Origin: Clostridiales bacterium
GTDB lineage: Bacteria > Bacillota > Clostridia > Christensenellales > Aristaeellaceae
NCBI GenBank assembly: GCA_017569285.1
Contig: CP069419.1
Location: 1,302,001-1,366,000 of the forward strand
DNA length: 64,000 nucleotides
Reading direction: 5' to 3'
This document shows, in pieces, positions 11,649 to 31,828 of this stretch. A model generated the notes under the pieces. It made no database searches and had not been told where the DNA came from. It saw only the letters and a program-made list of their open reading frames with translations. The position numbers were made by a program, and so were the translations under genes. Within the stretch, counting starts at the first letter, position 1. Each line of letters opens with the position of its first letter.

Positions 11649-11681
11649 ATTATATTCCATTTTGCCTACTATGTCAATAGG
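11649..11681 (-). promoter_or_regulatory. nifS promoter with overlapping inverted repeat
   Basis: Minus strand: TTGACA (11672-11677), 17 bp, TATAAT (11649-11654). The imperfect inverted repeat CCTATTGACATAGTAGG (11665-11681) covers the -35, a layout suited to an Rrf2-type repressor. No such regulator gene is nearby. Confidence 0.75.
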
Positions 11682-11805
11682 TAATTAAACGGCCTCTTTC
11701 GCGCTTCAAAATTCATGTTTGACATAAAGTGAACTCGAAGGTTTACCATTCTTTTCAGGAAGGAAAAATACACATCGGATCATCATTCATCGGGAGGAAG
11801 GTCAT

Positions 11806-24782: not shown

Positions 24783-25412
24783 TTATTGAATTCCCGGAAC
24801 GGTAATTCCGCTGCGGACCGCCTGGACCGCCAGTTCGGTCCGGGATGACAGGCCGGTCTTGCTCATCAGGTTGCCCACGTGGTACCGGACCGTCGTGATG
24901 CTCAGGAAGAGCCGCTCGGCAATCTCCTTGTCGGTCAGCCCGTCAGCCAGCATGCGCAGCACGTCCAGCTCCCGCTCGGTAAACTCCGTACTCCGGGCGA
25001 TGCCCAGCTGCATCACCGGCGGATGATCCGGCCAGATCCGCTCCCCGGCCATGGTCCGGTTCATGACTTCCAGCATGGGATGGGCCTGGACTTCCTTATA
25101 CCAGAAGGAATCCACGCCGATCGCCCGGGCGCGGCGAAGGATGGCGGCGTCCGGCATGGACGTGACGACGATGATCTTGACCCTGGGATAGGATTTTCGG
25201 ATCCGCTCCGCGGCGTCCAGCCCGTTGGAACCGTCGTTCATCACCACGTCCATCAGCACCAGGTCCACGTCTCCCCGGGCGCAGTAGGTATCCGCAACGG
25301 ACGCTGTGTCGATCATGTCCACGATCTCATAGAGGTCCGTCGCGGCGATGATTGCCTGGAACAGCTGGCGGGGAACGACCTGGTCGTCAACGATCAATAC
25401 TCTGTACGGCAT
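24783..25412 (-). CDS. NarL/LuxR-family response regulator
   Basis: A 209-residue two-domain regulator. The receiver domain (residues 1-120) has acidic DD near the N-terminus (LIVDDQ), phospho-acceptor Asp in LVLMDVVMNDG, Thr/Ser in VVTSMPD and Lys in FWYKEVQ. The C-terminal LuxR helix-turn-helix reads TERELDVLRMLADGLTDKEIAERL and SITTVRYHVGNLMSKTG. ATG 25412 follows GGAGGT and overlaps the kinase gene by 26 bp, so translation is probably coupled. The large surface-protein gene lies just downstream and shares a promoter element with the signalling operon, suggesting that it is a direct target. Confidence 0.95.
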   Translation of the reverse strand: MPYRVLIVDDQVVPRQLFQAIIAATDLYEIVDMIDTASVADTYCARGDVDLVLMDVVMNDGSNGLDAAERIRKSYPRVKIIVVTSMPDAAILRRARAIGVDSFWYKEVQAHPMLEVMNRTMAGERIWPDHPPVMQLGIARSTEFTERELDVLRMLADGLTDKEIAERLFLSITTVRYHVGNLMSKTGLSSRTELAVQAVRSGITVPGIQ

Positions 25413-26688
25413 GATGCACCTCCCCGGGCAGTTCAAGAGTCAGCCGGAATACGGGATCCACCGAGATGGACATCCTTCCGCCGGCCTGTTCAGCCAGGCC
25501 GCGCAGGGCGGCCAGCCCGCCCTTTTCCGATATCGGACCGGATGGCGGGATTCCGTTGTTCGTAAAGGAGATCCGCAGTCCGTTCTCCGTTTTTTCCGCA
25601 TCCACGTCCAGGCGGTCGCCCCGGGCGTGGCGCAGGGTGTTGGTAAAGCATTCATGGAGCCCGGTGACCGCAATATGCTTCCAGGGTTCTGCCTGCGGCA
25701 GTTCCCCGGTCACCGAAATATGCACGCCCAGCTTTTCGGCCGTCTCCGCCAGCACTTCATATTCATCCCGGCGGACCGGATTGAACCCGGTCTTCAGGAA
25801 GGTGATGTTCCGGCGCAGCATGGCTTCGATTCCCTGCCGGTCCTCTTCCGTCCCGCTTTCCCGGAGATAGCGTTTCATGGTCAGCAGGTCTTCACCCATC
25901 TGGTCGTGCATCCGCACCCGGGCGTTCAGCAGTTCCTTCTCCGCGGTCAGTGCGACGATCTCCCGGTTGTAGGCGGTCAGCCGTTCGTTCAGCGCCGCGA
26001 GGGATTGCTGCATTTCCTGCAGGGACTGTGTTTTGCGGTAGGTTTCCGTAATCTCCGATACCAGCAGGCGGCGGACCGGCGTGCTGCGGAAGCTTTCGTC
26101 ACTCACCGAGACGGACCAGACCGTCCCGTCCGCCAGCAGGATCACCGGCATATCCCCGGCCATGATCCGTTCGCATCCGTCCTGCAGGCTTCCGTCCCGC
26201 AGCTGCCGGCATACCCGTTCCCCGTTGATGGGCGCTTCCCCGGTCGCCGCCCGGCAGAACCGTTCCATGGTCCGGTTGGTCATGATCGTCTGGCCGCCGG
26301 GCAGCCAGATGCAGACCCCGGTGGGCAGGCTGTCCACCGCCTCCTTGACGGACATCGGGGTGATCCGGTTCCGGTCACGGCGGCGCACGGCCAGGATCAG
26401 TCCGGCCAGGCCCAGGACCGCCGCCGCGTACAGTCCGATGTGGACGGAAACGGGCCGGGAAAGGATCCAGCTGAGGGACGTCTCCGCCGCATTGAAGGAC
26501 ACCCCGTCCCAGGCGCTGAGAATGGCGATCTGGAACATCAGGTAGCATCCGGCGGTCAGCGCCAGCGCTGCGGCCAGGAGCAGGCCGCGCTTCTGGCGGT
26601 ACAGCAGCGTGGAAACCACCACGGCGGTCATAAACAGCGGCAGCCAGGCGATGGCCGCCCAGGACCAGGAAAAAGAGGAGGCAATCAT
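25387..26688 (-). CDS. Membrane histidine kinase (DesK/NarX-like)
   Basis: A 433-residue kinase. Three hydrophobic segments lie at about residues 8-28, 36-58 and 82-102, then a PAS-like region (residues 115-230, GVCIWLPGGQTIMTNR), a coiled coil, a HisKA_3-type H box with the phosphorylated His in RMHDQMGEDLL, and an HATPase domain with N box HECFTNTLRHARG and G box FTNNGIPPSG. The start ATG overlaps the stop of the upstream sensor gene (ATGA). It should phosphorylate the LuxR-type regulator encoded next; the stimulus is unknown. Confidence 0.92.
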   Translation of the reverse strand: MIASSFSWSWAAIAWLPLFMTAVVVSTLLYRQKRGLLLAAALALTAGCYLMFQIAILSAWDGVSFNAAETSLSWILSRPVSVHIGLYAAAVLGLAGLILAVRRRDRNRITPMSVKEAVDSLPTGVCIWLPGGQTIMTNRTMERFCRAATGEAPINGERVCRQLRDGSLQDGCERIMAGDMPVILLADGTVWSVSVSDESFRSTPVRRLLVSEITETYRKTQSLQEMQQSLAALNERLTAYNREIVALTAEKELLNARVRMHDQMGEDLLTMKRYLRESGTEEDRQGIEAMLRRNITFLKTGFNPVRRDEYEVLAETAEKLGVHISVTGELPQAEPWKHIAVTGLHECFTNTLRHARGDRLDVDAEKTENGLRISFTNNGIPPSGPISEKGGLAALRGLAEQAGGRMSISVDPVFRLTLELPGEVHHAVQSIDR

Positions 26689-28307
26689 GGAAGCCCGACC
26701 CCCTTCCCATAGGCCAGCTGCAGGATCAGGTCCGTGCTCTCCCCGCTTACGGAAACCTCGCGGGAAAACCCGCCGTCGCTCCACGGGGCAAACTCCGGCA
26801 TGGTATACCAGTCGTGCGTGCTCAGCATGACGCGGACGGACAGGCCCTCCGGGTCAGCGGTCGTATTCAGGACGATCATCAGGTCGGACAGGACGTTCAC
26901 GAACGCTTCGATAATCCGCTGGATCTGCAGCAGGGCGTCCACCACCACGGGAGCCGGCAGGTCCCCGTGGGCGCCGGATACCGAGATCGCGTTGACGCCG
27001 CAGAGCTTCAGCGTCTCCGTCATCTCCAGCACGGCCATGGACAGCTCTTCCAGCGGGAGCGTTCCGTCCTTTTCCGCCAGCAGCTCCATATTGCTGCGGC
27101 GTTTGATATAGGTGCATCGCGGCACAATCTGCCGGAGGCGGGAATCAAAGGGAGGCTCCTTCTGCTCCAGCAGTTCGTGGATGCTGTCCAGCTGGGGCTG
27201 CACGGCATGCATGATATGCTCATAGATCCGGTTCCGGGTTTCCAGGGCGGATTTCTCTTCCTTCACCTTGGCCTCGTCCGCCAGGTACGCGTTGCGGGCC
27301 TCCAGCTGCTGGGCGGCGTCCCCGATGGCCTGGTTCAGTTCATGCAGCGGGGAAAGATCCACCGTCCACTCCACGGATCCCCCGGCGATCGGATGGTCCA
27401 TTTGCTGCAGCCATGCGTTGCCGGAGGACGGCTCGGGATCCGGGCCGGAGGAAAAACGCACGGCGCCCTCCGTGTCCCGGATCACAGCGGAAAGGCCGGA
27501 CAGCGGAAAAAGCTCCCCGTAAACGGTATTCGCGGGGATCAGCCCCACCTGGATACAGGCCTCCAGCGAACCGACCAGGCAGAACACCAGGACCTCGCCG
27601 ATATTCCATATGCGCATGCCGAACAGGCGGGAATCGATTTTCAGGGAATACAGCAGGTAGTAGGCAATGCCCATGCCCAGCGGGACGAGCGGCAGCCAGC
27701 GGAGCCTGCGGTTTTCGATATGCCGGCCTTTCCGGAGCATGATGATGATGGCGGCGGCATAGGTCAGGAAAACGAGGGCATAGATCGGATCGGACAGGAT
27801 TCCTTTCTTCTCTGAACCGTTGTCGATCATAACGCCGTCCGGAAAGGACCGGAACAGGAAATGAAGGTCGTTGGTCAGGATGATGAGCCCCGCCAGGAAA
27901 CAGGCGGCGGGGATGAGGAAGACGCGGGCCGGAAGGCGTTCCTCCGGCGGCCGGTGCACGCTGACGGCCGTCAGGTAGCAGAAAGCCGGCGCCATGGTGA
28001 AGGGCAGGTAGAATGCGTACCAGAGGTACCTTCTCATGGGGATGCTTTCCGGAAAGAGGTTGTACTTGGCGGCCTGCAGTATCACGTACAGGACCAGGGA
28101 AAATACGATCGCCAGCAGGAAACGGCGCAGGCGGGTATCCGTGATCCGTTTCTGGATGGAAATGCCCCAGATCAGGGAAAACGCGGCGCAGTAGAGCTGG
28201 GTAAAACCATCGAAGAAGTCCACGTCATACAGCGCCATGTGCAGGACACCGCTCAAAAGGGCGCACAGGCAGATCAGGCAGAGATTCCTTTTCCCGATGC
28301 CCAGCAT
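26685..28307 (-). CDS. Multi-TM sensor protein with degenerate kinase-like cytoplasmic half
   Basis: A 540-residue protein with seven or eight membrane helices in residues 8-265, followed by a small PAS-like part, a coiled coil (residues about 330-365, EARNAYLADEAKVKEEKSAL-like) and a region that resembles histidine kinases. The segment EHIMHAVQPQLDSIHELL sits where the H box would be, but I find no N, G1 or G2 ATP-binding boxes. The gene starts the signalling operon and overlaps the true kinase by 4 bp. I read it as a co-sensor that works with the adjoining kinase, not as an active kinase. AAAGGAGG precedes ATG 28307. Confidence 0.82.
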   Translation of the reverse strand: MLGIGKRNLCLICLCALLSGVLHMALYDVDFFDGFTQLYCAAFSLIWGISIQKRITDTRLRRFLLAIVFSLVLYVILQAAKYNLFPESIPMRRYLWYAFYLPFTMAPAFCYLTAVSVHRPPEERLPARVFLIPAACFLAGLIILTNDLHFLFRSFPDGVMIDNGSEKKGILSDPIYALVFLTYAAAIIIMLRKGRHIENRRLRWLPLVPLGMGIAYYLLYSLKIDSRLFGMRIWNIGEVLVFCLVGSLEACIQVGLIPANTVYGELFPLSGLSAVIRDTEGAVRFSSGPDPEPSSGNAWLQQMDHPIAGGSVEWTVDLSPLHELNQAIGDAAQQLEARNAYLADEAKVKEEKSALETRNRIYEHIMHAVQPQLDSIHELLEQKEPPFDSRLRQIVPRCTYIKRRSNMELLAEKDGTLPLEELSMAVLEMTETLKLCGVNAISVSGAHGDLPAPVVVDALLQIQRIIEAFVNVLSDLMIVLNTTADPEGLSVRVMLSTHDWYTMPEFAPWSDGGFSREVSVSGESTDLILQLAYGKGVGLP

Positions 28308-28384: not shown

Positions 28385-28426
28385 ATTATACATCATCCGG
28401 CAGGTCTTGTCCCTATCAGAAATAAC
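28385..28426 (-). promoter_or_regulatory. Signalling-operon promoter with the shared 20-bp element
   Basis: Minus strand -10 TATAAT (28385-28390), no consensus -35, and the 20-bp element (28407-28426) 16 bp upstream of the -10. The same element and spacing occur before the surface-protein gene, which suggests autoregulation by the LuxR-type regulator. Confidence 0.75.
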
Positions 28427-28438
28427 GGGGATTACAAA

Positions 28439-28464
28439 GGGGCTGCCTCAGATGAGACAGCCCC
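28439..28464 (-). terminator. Terminator of the amino-acid binding-protein gene
   Basis: GGGGCTGYCTCA-type stem spanning 28439-28464, with a short T stretch on the minus strand. It also separates this unit from the signalling operon. Confidence 0.7.
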
Positions 28465-28483
28465 GGTTTTCGGTTCCGGAAAC

Positions 28484-29311
28484 TCAGATGACGCCGCCTT
28501 CCACCACGAGGCTGTCCGCATCCGCGTTCTCGCCGTAGGTTTCCCGCAGGGTCGCTTCATAATCCGCGTGGAAGAAGTTCTCTTCGCCCAGCGCCTTGAT
28601 TTCGTCGTTGACCCAGTTCAGCAGGGTTTCATTGCCCTTCGAAACGGCGGGGTTGATCGTGTCCAGGTCGCCCAGGGACTCAACGCCCACGGTGAATCCG
28701 GGATTCTCAATCGCCCAGGCCAGCACTTCGGTGTTGTCCGTGGACAGGGCGGCTCCGCGGCCGTCCAGCAGGGCCAGGTATGCTTCGGTGTAGCTGTCAT
28801 ACCGGTCGAGGATCACTTCGGGATAGTTGTTGGTGAAGTAGGTCTCCGCGGTGGTGCCCTTGGAAACGATCAGGTGCTGTCCGTTCAGCTGTTCCGCTTC
28901 GGTGATCAGCGCGCTGTCCGGGCTGACGATGCCCAGGGCGACCTTCATGTAGGGCAGGGCGAAATCGACCTGTTCGGCGCGTTCCGCGGTGTAGGTGAAG
29001 TTCGCCAGCACCAGGTCCACCTTGAAGGACTGCAGGTATTCAATGCGGTTCGGGGCATCCAGGGACACGATGTCGAGCTCCACGCCCAGGTCGGCGGCCA
29101 GCCGGCGGGCCAGGTAGACGTCATATCCCTGGTATTCGCCGTTCTCGTCCACATAACCGAAGGGCTTCTTGTCGGAGAAGAGGCCGACGGTGATCTTTCC
29201 GCTCTGCTTGATCTCATCCAGGGTGCGGAAGCCTTCCGCGGAAGCGGCCGTAGCGGCCAGCAGCAGGACCAGGGCCAGGGTCAGGGCAAATACTTTGTTC
29301 AGCAGTTTCAT
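28484..29311 (-). CDS. Polar amino-acid ABC transporter substrate-binding protein
   Basis: A 275-residue family 3 solute-binding protein. A signal peptide (MKLLNKVFALTLALVLLLAATAASA) is followed by KITVGLFSDKKPFGYVDENG, GYDVYLARRLAADLG and the ligand-binding segments FTYTAERAEQVDFALPYM and VSKGTTAETYF. This subgroup includes cystine, glutamate and aspartate binders. Its permease and ATPase genes lie directly upstream, but this gene has a separate promoter, a Cys/Met-rich leader ORF and a terminator in between. That arrangement makes cystine or another sulfur amino acid the likely ligand. AAGGAAGG precedes ATG 29311. Confidence 0.92.
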   Translation of the reverse strand: MKLLNKVFALTLALVLLLAATAASAEGFRTLDEIKQSGKITVGLFSDKKPFGYVDENGEYQGYDVYLARRLAADLGVELDIVSLDAPNRIEYLQSFKVDLVLANFTYTAERAEQVDFALPYMKVALGIVSPDSALITEAEQLNGQHLIVSKGTTAETYFTNNYPEVILDRYDSYTEAYLALLDGRGAALSTDNTEVLAWAIENPGFTVGVESLGDLDTINPAVSKGNETLLNWVNDEIKALGEENFFHADYEATLRETYGENADADSLVVEGGVI

Positions 29312-29468
29312 ATCGGGTTACCTTCCTTTCGTTTATCCGTTTTTTTTTCTTTATTTCTCCGTCTGGATTGTTCCCTTTTCATGTGCATGCGCCGGAACAT
29401 CGATCCCTCGCCGTTCGGGTGTGAATCATCCGCGTCATCCTTTCCGTTGGTTCTTTGCCTCCGGCACA

Positions 29469-29499
29469 GAAAAAGAGCCGGAACGATCATGTCCGGCTC
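29469..29499 (-). terminator. Attenuator-type terminator before the binding-protein gene
   Basis: Minus strand stem GAGCCGGA (29492-29499) with TCCGGCTC (29475-29482), 9-base loop, then TTTTT. It lies 27 bp past the leader-peptide stop and about 160 bp before the binding-protein gene, with no second promoter seen between. Confidence 0.85.
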
Positions 29500-29526
29500 C
29501 CGGAAAAGCGCCTGCTTCTGCGCGCG

Positions 29527-29598
29527 TCAGCCGCGCTCCGGATGAGACGGACTCATGGAACAGCACATCATACAGGGACACATGCACATCTTTTTCAC
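29527..29598 (-). CDS. 23-codon Cys/Met-rich leader peptide
   Basis: A short ORF with GGAAGGAG 8 bases before GTG 29598 (ATG 29589 is an internal alternative) and TGA at 29527. Its peptide contains MCMCPCMMCCSM, so 10 of 12 consecutive codons are Cys or Met. It is the first ORF after a consensus promoter and is followed by an intrinsic terminator, then by an amino-acid ABC binding-protein gene. This is the layout of a ribosome-mediated attenuator that senses supply of charged tRNA-Cys (or tRNA-Met). A metal-binding microprotein is the alternative. No T-box or riboswitch motif is seen in the leader. Confidence 0.72.
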   Translation of the reverse strand: MKKMCMCPCMMCCSMSPSHPERG

Positions 29599-29624
29599 GG
29601 TTCCGTCTCCTTCCTGATTCATTT

Positions 29625-29678
29625 CCTATCATTCCGATAGGTTAAGTGGATTATAATGCCGGCAGACTGCCTTGTCAA
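29625..29678 (-). promoter_or_regulatory. Promoter and inverted repeat of the Cys-leader transcript
   Basis: Minus strand TTGACA (29673-29678, overlapping the ATPase stop codon), 17 bp, TATAAT (29650-29655). Just past the expected start site is CCTATCGGAATGATAGG (29625-29641), a 6-5-6 inverted repeat matching the nifS promoter element at 12 of 17 positions. Confidence 0.78.
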
Positions 29679-30457
29679 TCCTCCGGATTGTTTTTTGGCT
29701 GTACTTCAGATTTTTTGAACGAATAGGTAAAGCTCTTCAGGAACTGCTGTGCACGCTCCGTCTCCGGCGCGTGGAAGAACTTTTCAGGAGGGCCCTGCTC
29801 CACAACGACGCCGTCCTCCAGGAACAGCACCTCGTCGGCCACGGCCTCGGCAAACCGCATCTCATGCGTCACAATCGCCATGGTCATGCCGCCCCGGGCC
29901 AGGTCAATCACCACATTCAGCACCTCGCTGACCATTTCCGGGTCCAGCGCGGCGGTAATCTCATCCAGCAGCAGGATTTCCGGATGCATCATCATGGCGC
30001 GCACCAGCGCCACGCGCTGCTTCTGCCCGCCGGACAGGGTGCGGGGATAGACGTCCGCCTTTTCCCGGAGCCCGACACGTGCGAGCATTTCCAGCGCTTC
30101 CTTCTCCGCCTCTTCCCGCGGCCTTCCCAACGCGCGGACCGGGCCCAGCAGCAGGTTGTCCATCACCTTCATATGGGGGAACAGGTCATAGCTCTGGAAC
30201 ACCATGCCGATCTTCTGGCGGACCAGGTGCAGGTCCTTCGTCCGGCCGGAGATTTTCTCCCCCCGCAGGAAGATTTCCCCGCTGTCAATGGTTTCCAGTC
30301 CGTTGATGCACCGCAGCAGCGTGCTCTTTCCGCATCCGCTCGGCCCGACGATCACCACGACCTCGCCTTCCCGGATGTCCAGGGAGACCCCGTGCAGCAC
30401 ACCGGTTTCGTCAAATGATTTATGAACGTCCTTCACCCGCAGAATCGGTTCATTCAT
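29675..30457 (-). CDS. Polar amino-acid ABC transporter ATP-binding protein
   Basis: A 260-residue GlnQ/TcyC-type ATPase. Walker A GPSGCGKST, Q-loop FQSYDLFPHMKVMDNL, signature LSGGQKQRVALVRAMM, Walker B ILLLDEITAALDP and switch VTHEMRFAEAVADEV are all intact. It is the third gene after two permeases and ends where the promoter of the leader/binding-protein transcript begins. With the neighbouring genes it makes a complete importer, predicted for cystine or a related amino acid. Confidence 0.95.
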   Translation of the reverse strand: MNEPILRVKDVHKSFDETGVLHGVSLDIREGEVVVIVGPSGCGKSTLLRCINGLETIDSGEIFLRGEKISGRTKDLHLVRQKIGMVFQSYDLFPHMKVMDNLLLGPVRALGRPREEAEKEALEMLARVGLREKADVYPRTLSGGQKQRVALVRAMMMHPEILLLDEITAALDPEMVSEVLNVVIDLARGGMTMAIVTHEMRFAEAVADEVLFLEDGVVVEQGPPEKFFHAPETERAQQFLKSFTYSFKKSEVQPKNNPED

Positions 30458-30475: not shown

Positions 30476-31147
30476 TCACGCCCATTTCTTTTCCAGCCGT
30501 TTAGCCAGCATGGAGATGGGCCAGCAAACCAGGAAATACATCACGAAAATCACAAAATAGATCCAGAACGCCGCGTCCGGCGACCGGTAAAACTGTCCGA
30601 TAATCTGCTGCCCGACTTTCAGGACCTCGGTCACGTTGATCATCTTCACCAGCGCGGTCGTCTTGATGATGCGGGTGGACAGGTTGATCGCCTGCGGAAG
30701 CAGGCGCCGCAGCATCTGCGGAATCAGCACATGCCGATAGATCTGCCACTGGGTCAGGCCGATCGCGGCGGCGGATTCCGTCTGGTGCAGCGGGATGGAG
30801 GTCAGCGCGCCGCGGATCAGGTCGCCCATCTCCGCCGCTCCCCAGAAGGTGAACACCAGGATTCCGCTGGTTTCCCCGTCCAGGTCCCAGCCGAACAGCC
30901 GGGCAAACCCGAAATACACGATATACAGCAGCACCAGCTGAGGCATAAACCGGACGATCTCCAGCCATACGCGGCAGAAGACCTGCGCGACCTTCCGGCG
31001 GGAAAGCATCAGCAGGCCGAACAGCAGGCCCAGCGCGCAGGAAAGGCCGATGCTGACCAGCGCGATGCGCAGCGTGACCCACAGCCCGCCGAGGAGGCGC
31101 TGGAAGTTGATTCCCTTAAGCAGGATGGCGATTCCCGAATCCTGCAT
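30476..31147 (-). CDS. Polar amino-acid ABC transporter permease 2
   Basis: A 223-residue HisM/GlnP-family permease with about five membrane helices. Family segments include LGGLWVTLRIALVSIGLSCALG, MPQLVLLYIVYFG, the EAA-type loop ESAAAIGLTQWQIYRHVLIPQ and INLSTRIIKTTALVKMI. It overlaps the first permease gene by 32 bp, and AAAGGAGG precedes its ATG. The two permeases are related but distinct, as is usual for heterodimeric amino-acid importers. Confidence 0.93.
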   Translation of the reverse strand: MQDSGIAILLKGINFQRLLGGLWVTLRIALVSIGLSCALGLLFGLLMLSRRKVAQVFCRVWLEIVRFMPQLVLLYIVYFGFARLFGWDLDGETSGILVFTFWGAAEMGDLIRGALTSIPLHQTESAAAIGLTQWQIYRHVLIPQMLRRLLPQAINLSTRIIKTTALVKMINVTEVLKVGQQIIGQFYRSPDAAFWIYFVIFVMYFLVCWPISMLAKRLEKKWA

Positions 31148-31787
31148 AGCGCAGCCTCCTTTCCACCAGCGTCGCGATCAGGGAAACCGGGAGCAGGAGC
31201 ACCAGGTAGGCGGCCACCAGCATGAACAGCACCTCAATCGTGCGTCCGCCGCTGGTCCGCAGGGTATCCGCCACATTCATCAGGTCCATCATGGCGAGCA
31301 CCGAGAACATGCTGGTTTCCTTGATCAGGAAAATGATATTGGCAAACAGCGCGGGCACGGCGGTGGCCAGCGCCTGCGGGAGAATCACAAAGCGGATATT
31401 CTGGGCCGCGGTCAGGCCGATACACTGCCCGGCTTCCGTCTGGGAGCGGTCCACCGCCTCCAGGCCGCTGCGGAACGCTTCCGCCATATAGGCGCCGCCC
31501 AGGAAGGTCAGGCCGATCACCGCGCAGGCCTGCGCGCTGAACCGGATACCGATCCGCGGCAGTCCCGCGTACAGGAAAAACAGCTGCACCAGCAGCGGAG
31601 TGTTCCGGGCGACTTCGATATACGCCCCCACAATCCGCCGCAGGACCGGAACGCGGAAATACTGCGCCAGGCAGCACAGCAGCCCCAGCACCATCGAGCA
31701 GGCCACCCCGTAAAGGCCGAACCGCAGGGTGACCCAGGCGCCGCCGATGTAATCCGGCACATGCGCGCCGATAAACAACCAGTCCAC
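31116..31787 (-). CDS. Polar amino-acid ABC transporter permease 1
   Basis: A 223-residue permease of the same family (GGAWVTLRFGLYGVACSMVLG, YIEVARNTPLLVQLFFLYAG, DRSQTEAGQCIGLTAAQNIRF, NIIFLIKETSMFSVLAMMDL). GTG 31787 is taken as start because AAGGA lies just upstream and the N-terminus then fits the family; an in-frame TTG at 31808 is a weaker alternative. It heads the transporter operon, whose promoter contains a sequence like the inverted repeat at the Cys-leader promoter. Confidence 0.92.
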   Translation of the reverse strand: MDWLFIGAHVPDYIGGAWVTLRFGLYGVACSMVLGLLCCLAQYFRVPVLRRIVGAYIEVARNTPLLVQLFFLYAGLPRIGIRFSAQACAVIGLTFLGGAYMAEAFRSGLEAVDRSQTEAGQCIGLTAAQNIRFVILPQALATAVPALFANIIFLIKETSMFSVLAMMDLMNVADTLRTSGGRTIEVLFMLVAAYLVLLLPVSLIATLVERRLRYAGFGNRHPA

Positions 31788-31828
31788 GCGATCCTTCCTT
31801 TCCGGCAAAATGCCCTTTATGGTTATCC

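Follow-up and report, generated by a model that had tools for sequence, protein, structure and literature searches.

The locus studied here raises two questions: how the binding-protein gene of an amino-acid ABC transporter is controlled from the DNA that precedes it, and which amino acid that control, and the transporter itself, responds to. In the window, i.e. the whole stretch of 64,000 nt that was analysed, two ABC permease genes (31116-31808 and 30476-31147), the transporter ATPase gene (29675-30457) and the controlled gene, encoding a family 3 solute-binding protein (SBP; 28484-29311), are all located on the minus strand. The ATPase and SBP genes are separated by a 363-nt gap comprising a promoter, a palindrome directly past its -10 box, a Shine-Dalgarno (SD) sequence, a 23-codon open reading frame (ORF) and a hairpin that runs into five T residues. 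A preliminary description of this DNA had located a promoter, a ribosome site, an ORF and a terminator here and read them as a sulfur amino-acid attenuator; all four were found at the positions given, on the minus strand, and the attenuator remains the best-supported reading, with cysteine a likelier signal than methionine. We consider it likely that the gap encodes a ribosome-mediated transcription attenuator that senses charged tRNA-Cys and controls the SBP gene of an L-cysteine ABC importer. New elements are an operator, a pairing of the leader's SD, a preference for UGU among the control codons and another small ORF (uORF2) that carries a CGA codon.

The leader ORF (VKKMCMCPCMMCCSMSPSHPERG, followed by a stop codon; 29527-29598, minus strand) starts with GTG. 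It has its own ribosome site, with the SD sequence AAGGAG (29612-29607) 8 nt 5' of the start codon; together with segment 1, introduced below, this region spans 29602-29612 on the minus strand. The control codons form a 12-codon run (29554-29589, minus strand) with 5 Cys and 5 Met codons, which bears out the earlier count of 10 Cys or Met codons in 12; to this the GTG start adds a detail. Among the 120 SD-preceded ORFs of 12-40 codons on both strands of the window, the leader ORF reaches 10 Cys plus Met per 12 residues and the next best reaches 5, and the maximum among 8638 such ORFs from 40 first-order Markov windows was 6, attained once. The composition of the leader ORF lies far beyond what chance would give.

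Thirty-six leaders from distinct loci were studied in detail; leaders fetched later were left out of this set. They fall into two shapes, 1a (24 leaders; roughly MMCCxMC...RPSxxxLCLR) and 1b (12 leaders; MCCMCRxRRPxPCRxx). Since each leader carries 3-6 Cys codons and 1-5 Met codons besides the start, cysteine appears the likelier signal, with a possible part for methionine. The leader's control codons match the amino acid handled by the pathway that it would regulate. Its Cys codons are 115 UGU versus 45 UGC over the 36 leaders, whereas the ATPase and SBP genes of the leader loci use 5 UGU versus 82 UGC (45 ATPase readings, duplicate loci kept in). The SBPs themselves contain hardly any cysteine, with 2 Cys codons counted over the first 780 nt of 36 genes, which would fit a protein made under cysteine starvation. 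A second class of Cys-rich ORFs ending in CCLTR (L024, L032, L033 and L096; similar in L062 and L102) was rejected as out-of-frame readings inside the ATPase gene.

To follow the leader through relatives, the upstream DNA of SBP orthologues was read from the genus, from public contigs (best 80 of 536) and from the family, in which 75 of 308 genomes had an SBP match with E <= 1e-90 and 55 of these 75 were ≥70% identical to the window SBP. The preliminary description had proposed conservation of the Cys codons and the terminator in relatives as its check. This largely held, as Cys-rich leaders precede 49 of the 55 close orthologues (44 by script and 5 by eye) and a scripted terminator, i.e. a hairpin with a T-rich tail, is present 3' of the ORF in 33/36 leaders; it failed for six close orthologues without a leader (L006, L007, L013, L016, L017 and L186), five of which belong to the window's own genus. 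Loss of the Cys codons in close relatives was among the outcomes that the preliminary description had named as refuting its reading. The leaders judged by eye were L175, L187 and the degenerate L190, L202 and L203, and some of the scripted ones needed a loosened rule. The strict rule detected no leader in 146 reverse-strand regions or 730 shuffles, the loosened rule one in 153 and five in 765, respectively. More distant SBPs (59-65% identity; 15 of 20 examined) had no leader by script. When 118 distinct SBPs were placed in a midpoint-rooted tree, the leaders were confined to one clade (local support 0.997), where 52 of the 57 tips have one, against 0/61 tips outside; labels were set by eye for L052, L058, L190, L202 and L203, and L187 was counted as a leader against its script label. 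The simplest account of this distribution would be one gain and about five losses. A leader profile found this locus alone in its own genome (E 1.5e-4; next 0.2) and at least five matches in 396 genomes of the order, a lower bound because at most 21 candidates were scored per genome and the own locus was missed. Two of these five were inspected (L131 and L132) and are true leaders in the same place.

Between leader and SBP gene lies an intrinsic terminator, consisting of a hairpin and U tract (segments 3:4; 29470-29500, minus strand). The hairpin (29500-29474) has a computed energy of -15.4 kcal/mol (z = -4.26 versus shuffles) and runs into TTTTT at 29474-29470. It was not listed by a consensus scan because the scan allows loops of 3-8 bases and this loop has 9. 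The three leaders that fail the terminator rule (L040, L066 and L080) have a hairpin visible by eye, with poor U tracts in L066 and L080. Poor U tracts, such as TTTATATA, occur after the long 1b hairpins of L057, L058, L064, L066, L072 and L080.

The terminator would compete with an antiterminator that begins directly past the Cys run, inside the ORF. Its 5' strand is segment 2 (GTCCGTCTCATCCGGAGCGC; 29533-29552, minus strand) and its 3' strand, which is also the terminator 5' arm, is segment 3 (GCGCTTTTCCGGGAGCCGGAC; 29491-29511, minus strand). In the window, GUCCG-U-CUC-AU-CCGGAGCGC pairs with GCGC-UUUU-CCGG-GAG-C-CGGAC, and folding from the ORF tail to the terminator loop yields the antiterminator at -31.9 kcal/mol. 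Over 33 leaders, the duplex of ORF tail and terminator 5' arm averages -26.8 kcal/mol versus -22.3 for synonymous codons and -20.5 for shuffled tails; the own duplex is stronger than the synonymous mean in 29/33, equal in L047 and weaker in L015, L052 and L054. RNAalifold yields the antiterminator unasked for 22/24 1a leaders (L040 and L054 excluded) and, for 10/12 1b leaders (L066 and L080 excluded), a counterpart. In the 1a alignment, 93.6% of the cells are paired with 11 two-sided changes, each value reached by 0/500 shuffles, and no slide and none of the 500 shuffles attained its covariation score, but 144/500 shuffles had as many pairs showing change on both sides (3) and 113/500 as many pair types. 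In 1b, of 500 shuffles 26 were as good in covariation, 62 in cells paired and 303 in two-sided pairs, and slides score far below the real alignment. A predicted antiterminator that would exclude the terminator and starts past the control codons is thus found in both subgroups, more weakly in 1b.

Segment 1 (GAGACGGA; 29602-29609, minus strand) is the SD region itself, which is complementary to segment 2. In the fold of the whole leader, the SD region GAGACGG(A) pairs with (U)CCGUCUC of the ORF tail and the terminator forms as well, so that a computed 1:2 helix would free the terminator when the leader is not translated. The SD:tail duplexes of the 36 leaders average -17.0 kcal/mol versus -13.5 (synonymous), -13.3 (shuffled) and -14.8 (pairs swapped between leaders); the own pairing is stronger than the synonymous mean in 33/36 and than the shuffled one in 31/36, and in L044 both sides have changed (GAGACAGA with UCUGUCUC). 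Permutations as good as the own pairs numbered 0/2000 over all leaders and 3/2000 within each subgroup, counts that are to be read as indications rather than probabilities, as are the other pairing statistics, because the leaders are related and their independence is overstated. When this was repeated with 33 leaders and 5000 permutations, as good were 0 over all, 33 in 1a and 21 in 1b for SD:tail, and 0, 409 and 60, respectively, for the tail and terminator 5' arm; in two negative controls the counts ranged from 306 to 2490. The SD region against the terminator 3' arm showed no own-pair effect over all leaders (814/5000) or in 1b (3834/5000) and a weak one in 1a (149/5000). The fit of own pairs is clear for SD:tail; for the tail and terminator arm it is moderate in 1b and, in 1a with its nearly invariant arms, no better than the controls.

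Taken together, four competing segments would operate the switch: the leader's own SD region (1), the 3' part of the ORF (2) and the two terminator arms (3 and 4). When no ribosome is present, 1:2 and 3:4 would form and transcription would end. When cysteine is plentiful, the ribosome would translate past the Cys codons, reach the stop codon and mask segment 2, so that 3:4 forms and terminates transcription. When Cys-tRNA is short, the ribosome would stall on the Cys run, 1:2 would have been opened by translation, and 2:3 would form and permit readthrough. The weakest step is that 2:3 should win over 1:2. In the window, the tail and terminator arm duplex (-27.4 kcal/mol) exceeds SD:tail (-18.6 kcal/mol); in a fold that includes the SD region and leaves out the terminator 3' arm, the SD:tail helix beats the antiterminator, which is the minimum-energy state only when the fold starts past the Cys run. 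A stalled ribosome leaves the SD unmasked, and a ribosome within the 1:2 loop or a following ribosome would therefore have to keep 1:2 open.

The same terminator and antiterminator could be worked by an arrest peptide, in which the nascent chain blocks the exit tunnel in response to a signal other than tRNA charging, perhaps cysteine, a metal or redox state. The end of the ORF is conserved at the residue level (RPS...CLR in 1a, RRPxPCR in 1b) and Cys/Met-rich peptides can bind metals, both of which would suit an arrest peptide. However, much of this conserved end coincides with the RNA arm complementary to segments 1 and 3, and the leader of the window itself has SPSHPERG as its end instead. 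The Cys residues vary in number and spacing, a variation more in keeping with codons than with one particular peptide. We regard peptide arrest as unlikely. A quite improbable explanation is that the ORF matters through its product, a small peptide that binds metals or thiols, and that the terminator only sets the ratio of SBP to the membrane parts. The CxC and CC patterns of the leaders would agree with this, as would the general need for SBPs in excess over permeases, but length and Cys spacing differ among relatives, the order of promoter, SD, ORF, terminator and SBP gene recurs, and the SD pairs with the tail of its own leader. Moreover, 33 leader peptides had no match in NCBIfam, and a Pfam search with three leaders and five uORF2-type peptides returned one sub-threshold zinc-finger match (E 0.05).

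Control of the SBP gene by charged tRNA-Cys would be combined with control of its promoter. The sigma-70 type promoter TTGACA-17-TATAAT (29650-29678, minus strand) agrees with the consensus in 12/12 letters, with the -35 box at 29678-29673, the -10 box at 29655-29650 and a spacer of 17 nt; its -35 box overlaps the ATPase stop codon. A consensus scan of 28400-29800 gave this promoter-like site alone, as had been claimed for the SBP gene, and 34/36 leaders have a TTGACN-17-TATAAT-like promoter with a 17-nt spacer. Directly after the -10 box lies the palindrome AACCTAT-N6-GATAGGAAAT (29621-29643, no strand), probably the operator of an Rrf2-type (CymR/IscR-like) regulator.

A pattern derived from the leaders' own sites was searched in 45 genomes of the genus and gave 51 sites versus 8 for a reversed control pattern. 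The gene neighbours on either side were inspected at 30 of the 51 loci, with genes named by eye unless checked against NCBIfam. We found cysK-like genes at 11 loci: L138, L147, L155, L156 and, on the divergent side with another ORF on the first side, L136, L142, L151, L154, L160, L163 and L164. Other sites lie beside genes for cysteine desulfurase (NifS; L145, L150 and L144), SufC (L137 and L149), O-acetylhomoserine sulfhydrylase (L152 and L141), a Rid hydrolase (L158) and Rrf2 regulators (L159 and L161), or before the SBP gene of this transporter (L146, L148, L153, L162 and L165); at L139, L140, L143 and L157 no fitting gene was seen on inspection. NCBIfam agreed for the ten proteins checked (L137, L138, L145, L147, L149, L150, L152, L158, L159 and L161), the desulfurases scoring above a subfamily cut-off and the Rrf2 proteins above the superfamily cut-off only. 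The site is thus common to cysteine and Fe-S genes and to regulator genes of the Rrf2 family, and looks like the mark of a CymR/IscR-type cysteine and Fe-S regulon. The own genome encodes two Rrf2 genes above the Pfam cut-off, and an Rrf2 protein would additionally repress the leader promoter. A second copy of the operator with one mismatch is located in the window at 11665-11682, in the promoter of a NifS-like gene (11606-10419) that is followed by an IscU-like gene (10461-10012), both on the minus strand and named by eye. When two mismatches were allowed in a looser pattern, the window had 6 matches, a number reached by 23/100 shuffles and hence no more than chance; only the window sites with 0 and 1 mismatch were used.

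Promoter and operator persist before the SBP gene in the leaderless L006, L007 and L017, as expected if a constitutive partial terminator acted with Rrf2 repression alone and the leader ORF sensed nothing, yet the UGU-rich Cys run before 49/55 orthologues, the antiterminator and the SD pairing make this the least credible of the explanations.

Between the terminator and the SBP gene, uORF2 (MIHTRTARDRCSGACT, followed by a stop codon; 29379-29429, minus strand) carries the motif A-x-D-R-C with CGA as its Arg codon. The form A-[KRT]-D-R-C is common to many 1a relatives, L186 and L190 have [AV]TDAC, L202 is doubtful, and none of these patterns was found in 1b. In 24/24 distinct copies with DRC the Arg codon, directly before the Cys codon, is CGA, whereas the Ala, Asp and Cys codons vary synonymously; CGA accounts for 17/1411 Arg codons in the ATPase and SBP genes. 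The pattern itself is one at the peptide level. A uORF2 profile had its own copy (E 0.0029) as the sole match with E < 0.1 in the own genome. Five uORF2-type peptides had no match in NCBIfam. Among weak matches to the profile, L205, L210 and L211 look by eye to be out of frame in other genes, and L209 is a short frame. In L006 and L007, which lack the leader, uORF2 occupies the ribosome site adjoining the operator. It may provide a second cysteine-linked control. One could tentatively extend the attenuator to a three-tier cysteine switch, in which Rrf2 repression is followed by an attenuator whose leader gates its own translation through the SD as segment 1, and then by uORF2 behind the terminator, which would act on translation or RNA fate; we think of this extension as possible, though doubtful.

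The leader had been claimed to identify the substrate of the transporter. The cysteine reading does fit, but the assignment comes not from the leader alone, since SBP kinship and the operator are independent of it. The nearest solved relatives of the SBP are 1xt8 (E 2e-78) and 2yjp (E 8e-76), the next reaching 3e-34. We take 1xt8 to be the Campylobacter jejuni protein of a study in which cysteine-binding proteins were copurified with their ligand. According to the accessible part of that study, binding proteins of C. jejuni and Neisseria gonorrhoeae retained cysteine through purification and were selective for it (PMC7373191), and 2YJP is named as the L-cysteine SBP NGO2014 in the accessible text of PMC7170509. 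In NCBIfam, the SBP stays below the cut-off of each named transporter matched. From kinship, operator and leader we infer that the importer takes up cysteine, as the attenuator would also mark it to do. PMC7373191 further argues, in the part available, that cysteine can escape oxidation where oxygen is low; this would be consistent with life as a gut anaerobe.

Leader-peptide attenuators are classically those of trp, his, ilv and leu in proteobacteria, and E. coli trp combines a repressor with an attenuator, as proposed here. The present leader shares with the classical ones an SD-led short ORF, a run of control codons, a competing antiterminator and terminator, and a gene concerned with the same amino acid. 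It differs in its cysteine signal, its occurrence in Clostridia before the SBP gene of an importer, its segment 1 being the leader's own SD with segment 2 inside the ORF, and, in this subgroup, a uORF after the terminator. We know of no other attenuator with the leader's SD as segment 1. The control principle is thus classic and probably rarely described for cysteine, and the extra parts are probably unusual.

For actinobacterial cysteine leaders, leaderless ORFs are reportedly the subject of Canestrari et al. 2020, going by its title. PMC13236596, as far as accessible, describes that work as translation attenuation, and the accessible text of PMC1262725 reports that actinobacterial Cys runs lie close to the stop codon and that conserved terminator hairpins are lacking. 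Similar to these leaders, Cys-codon runs lie upstream of cysteine genes here; unlike them, as far as those accounts go, the window leader is SD-led with an intrinsic terminator and an antiterminator, and so is not a leaderless polycysteine ORF of the mycobacterial type, lacking a terminator.

The prevailing means of controlling amino-acid genes in Firmicutes are considered to be T-boxes, riboswitches and repressors. In the window, neither a T-box nor any other Rfam family reached its gathering score. Ten T-box matches (L114-L123) occur in the own genome, two above the Rfam gathering score. They precede synthetase, symporter and other genes, and none of the ORFs behind these ten resembles a cysteine gene by eye, although some were not recognised. 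Among the matches listed in the literature searched, which included few subscription journals, no cysteine leader-peptide attenuator in Firmicutes was found. According to the accessible part of PMC2965389 (2010), no regular leader-peptide system was known in Firmicutes before its histidine case; the hisS/hisZ leaders of bacilli described there likewise represent leader-peptide attenuation in Firmicutes, for another amino acid, in another lineage and before a synthetase instead of a transporter gene. The accessible text of PMC3828012 covers Rrf2-type regulators of Firmicutes that act on cysK, on cystine uptake and on Fe-S genes, the motifs of CymR and IscR being similar. The likeness to those regulons is one of gene content rather than a letter-by-letter comparison of the site with a published motif, and, unlike the regulons described there, one target here also has an attenuator.

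A cysteine attenuator with all its parts, apparently gained once within a clade of clostridia and lost several times, would be a clean system in which to study how attenuators originate. It also lets one ask why the control codon is one that its genes avoid and how an SD can double as a switch segment.

Downstream of the transporter genes, two further large ORFs lie on the minus strand: the first (26685-28307) has a weak HisKA_7TM match and the second (25387-26784) resembles a sensor kinase by eye. The closest named contig, with 99% SBP identity among the best 80 of 536 listed, is a goat-omasum metagenome-assembled genome labelled Clostridia bacterium.
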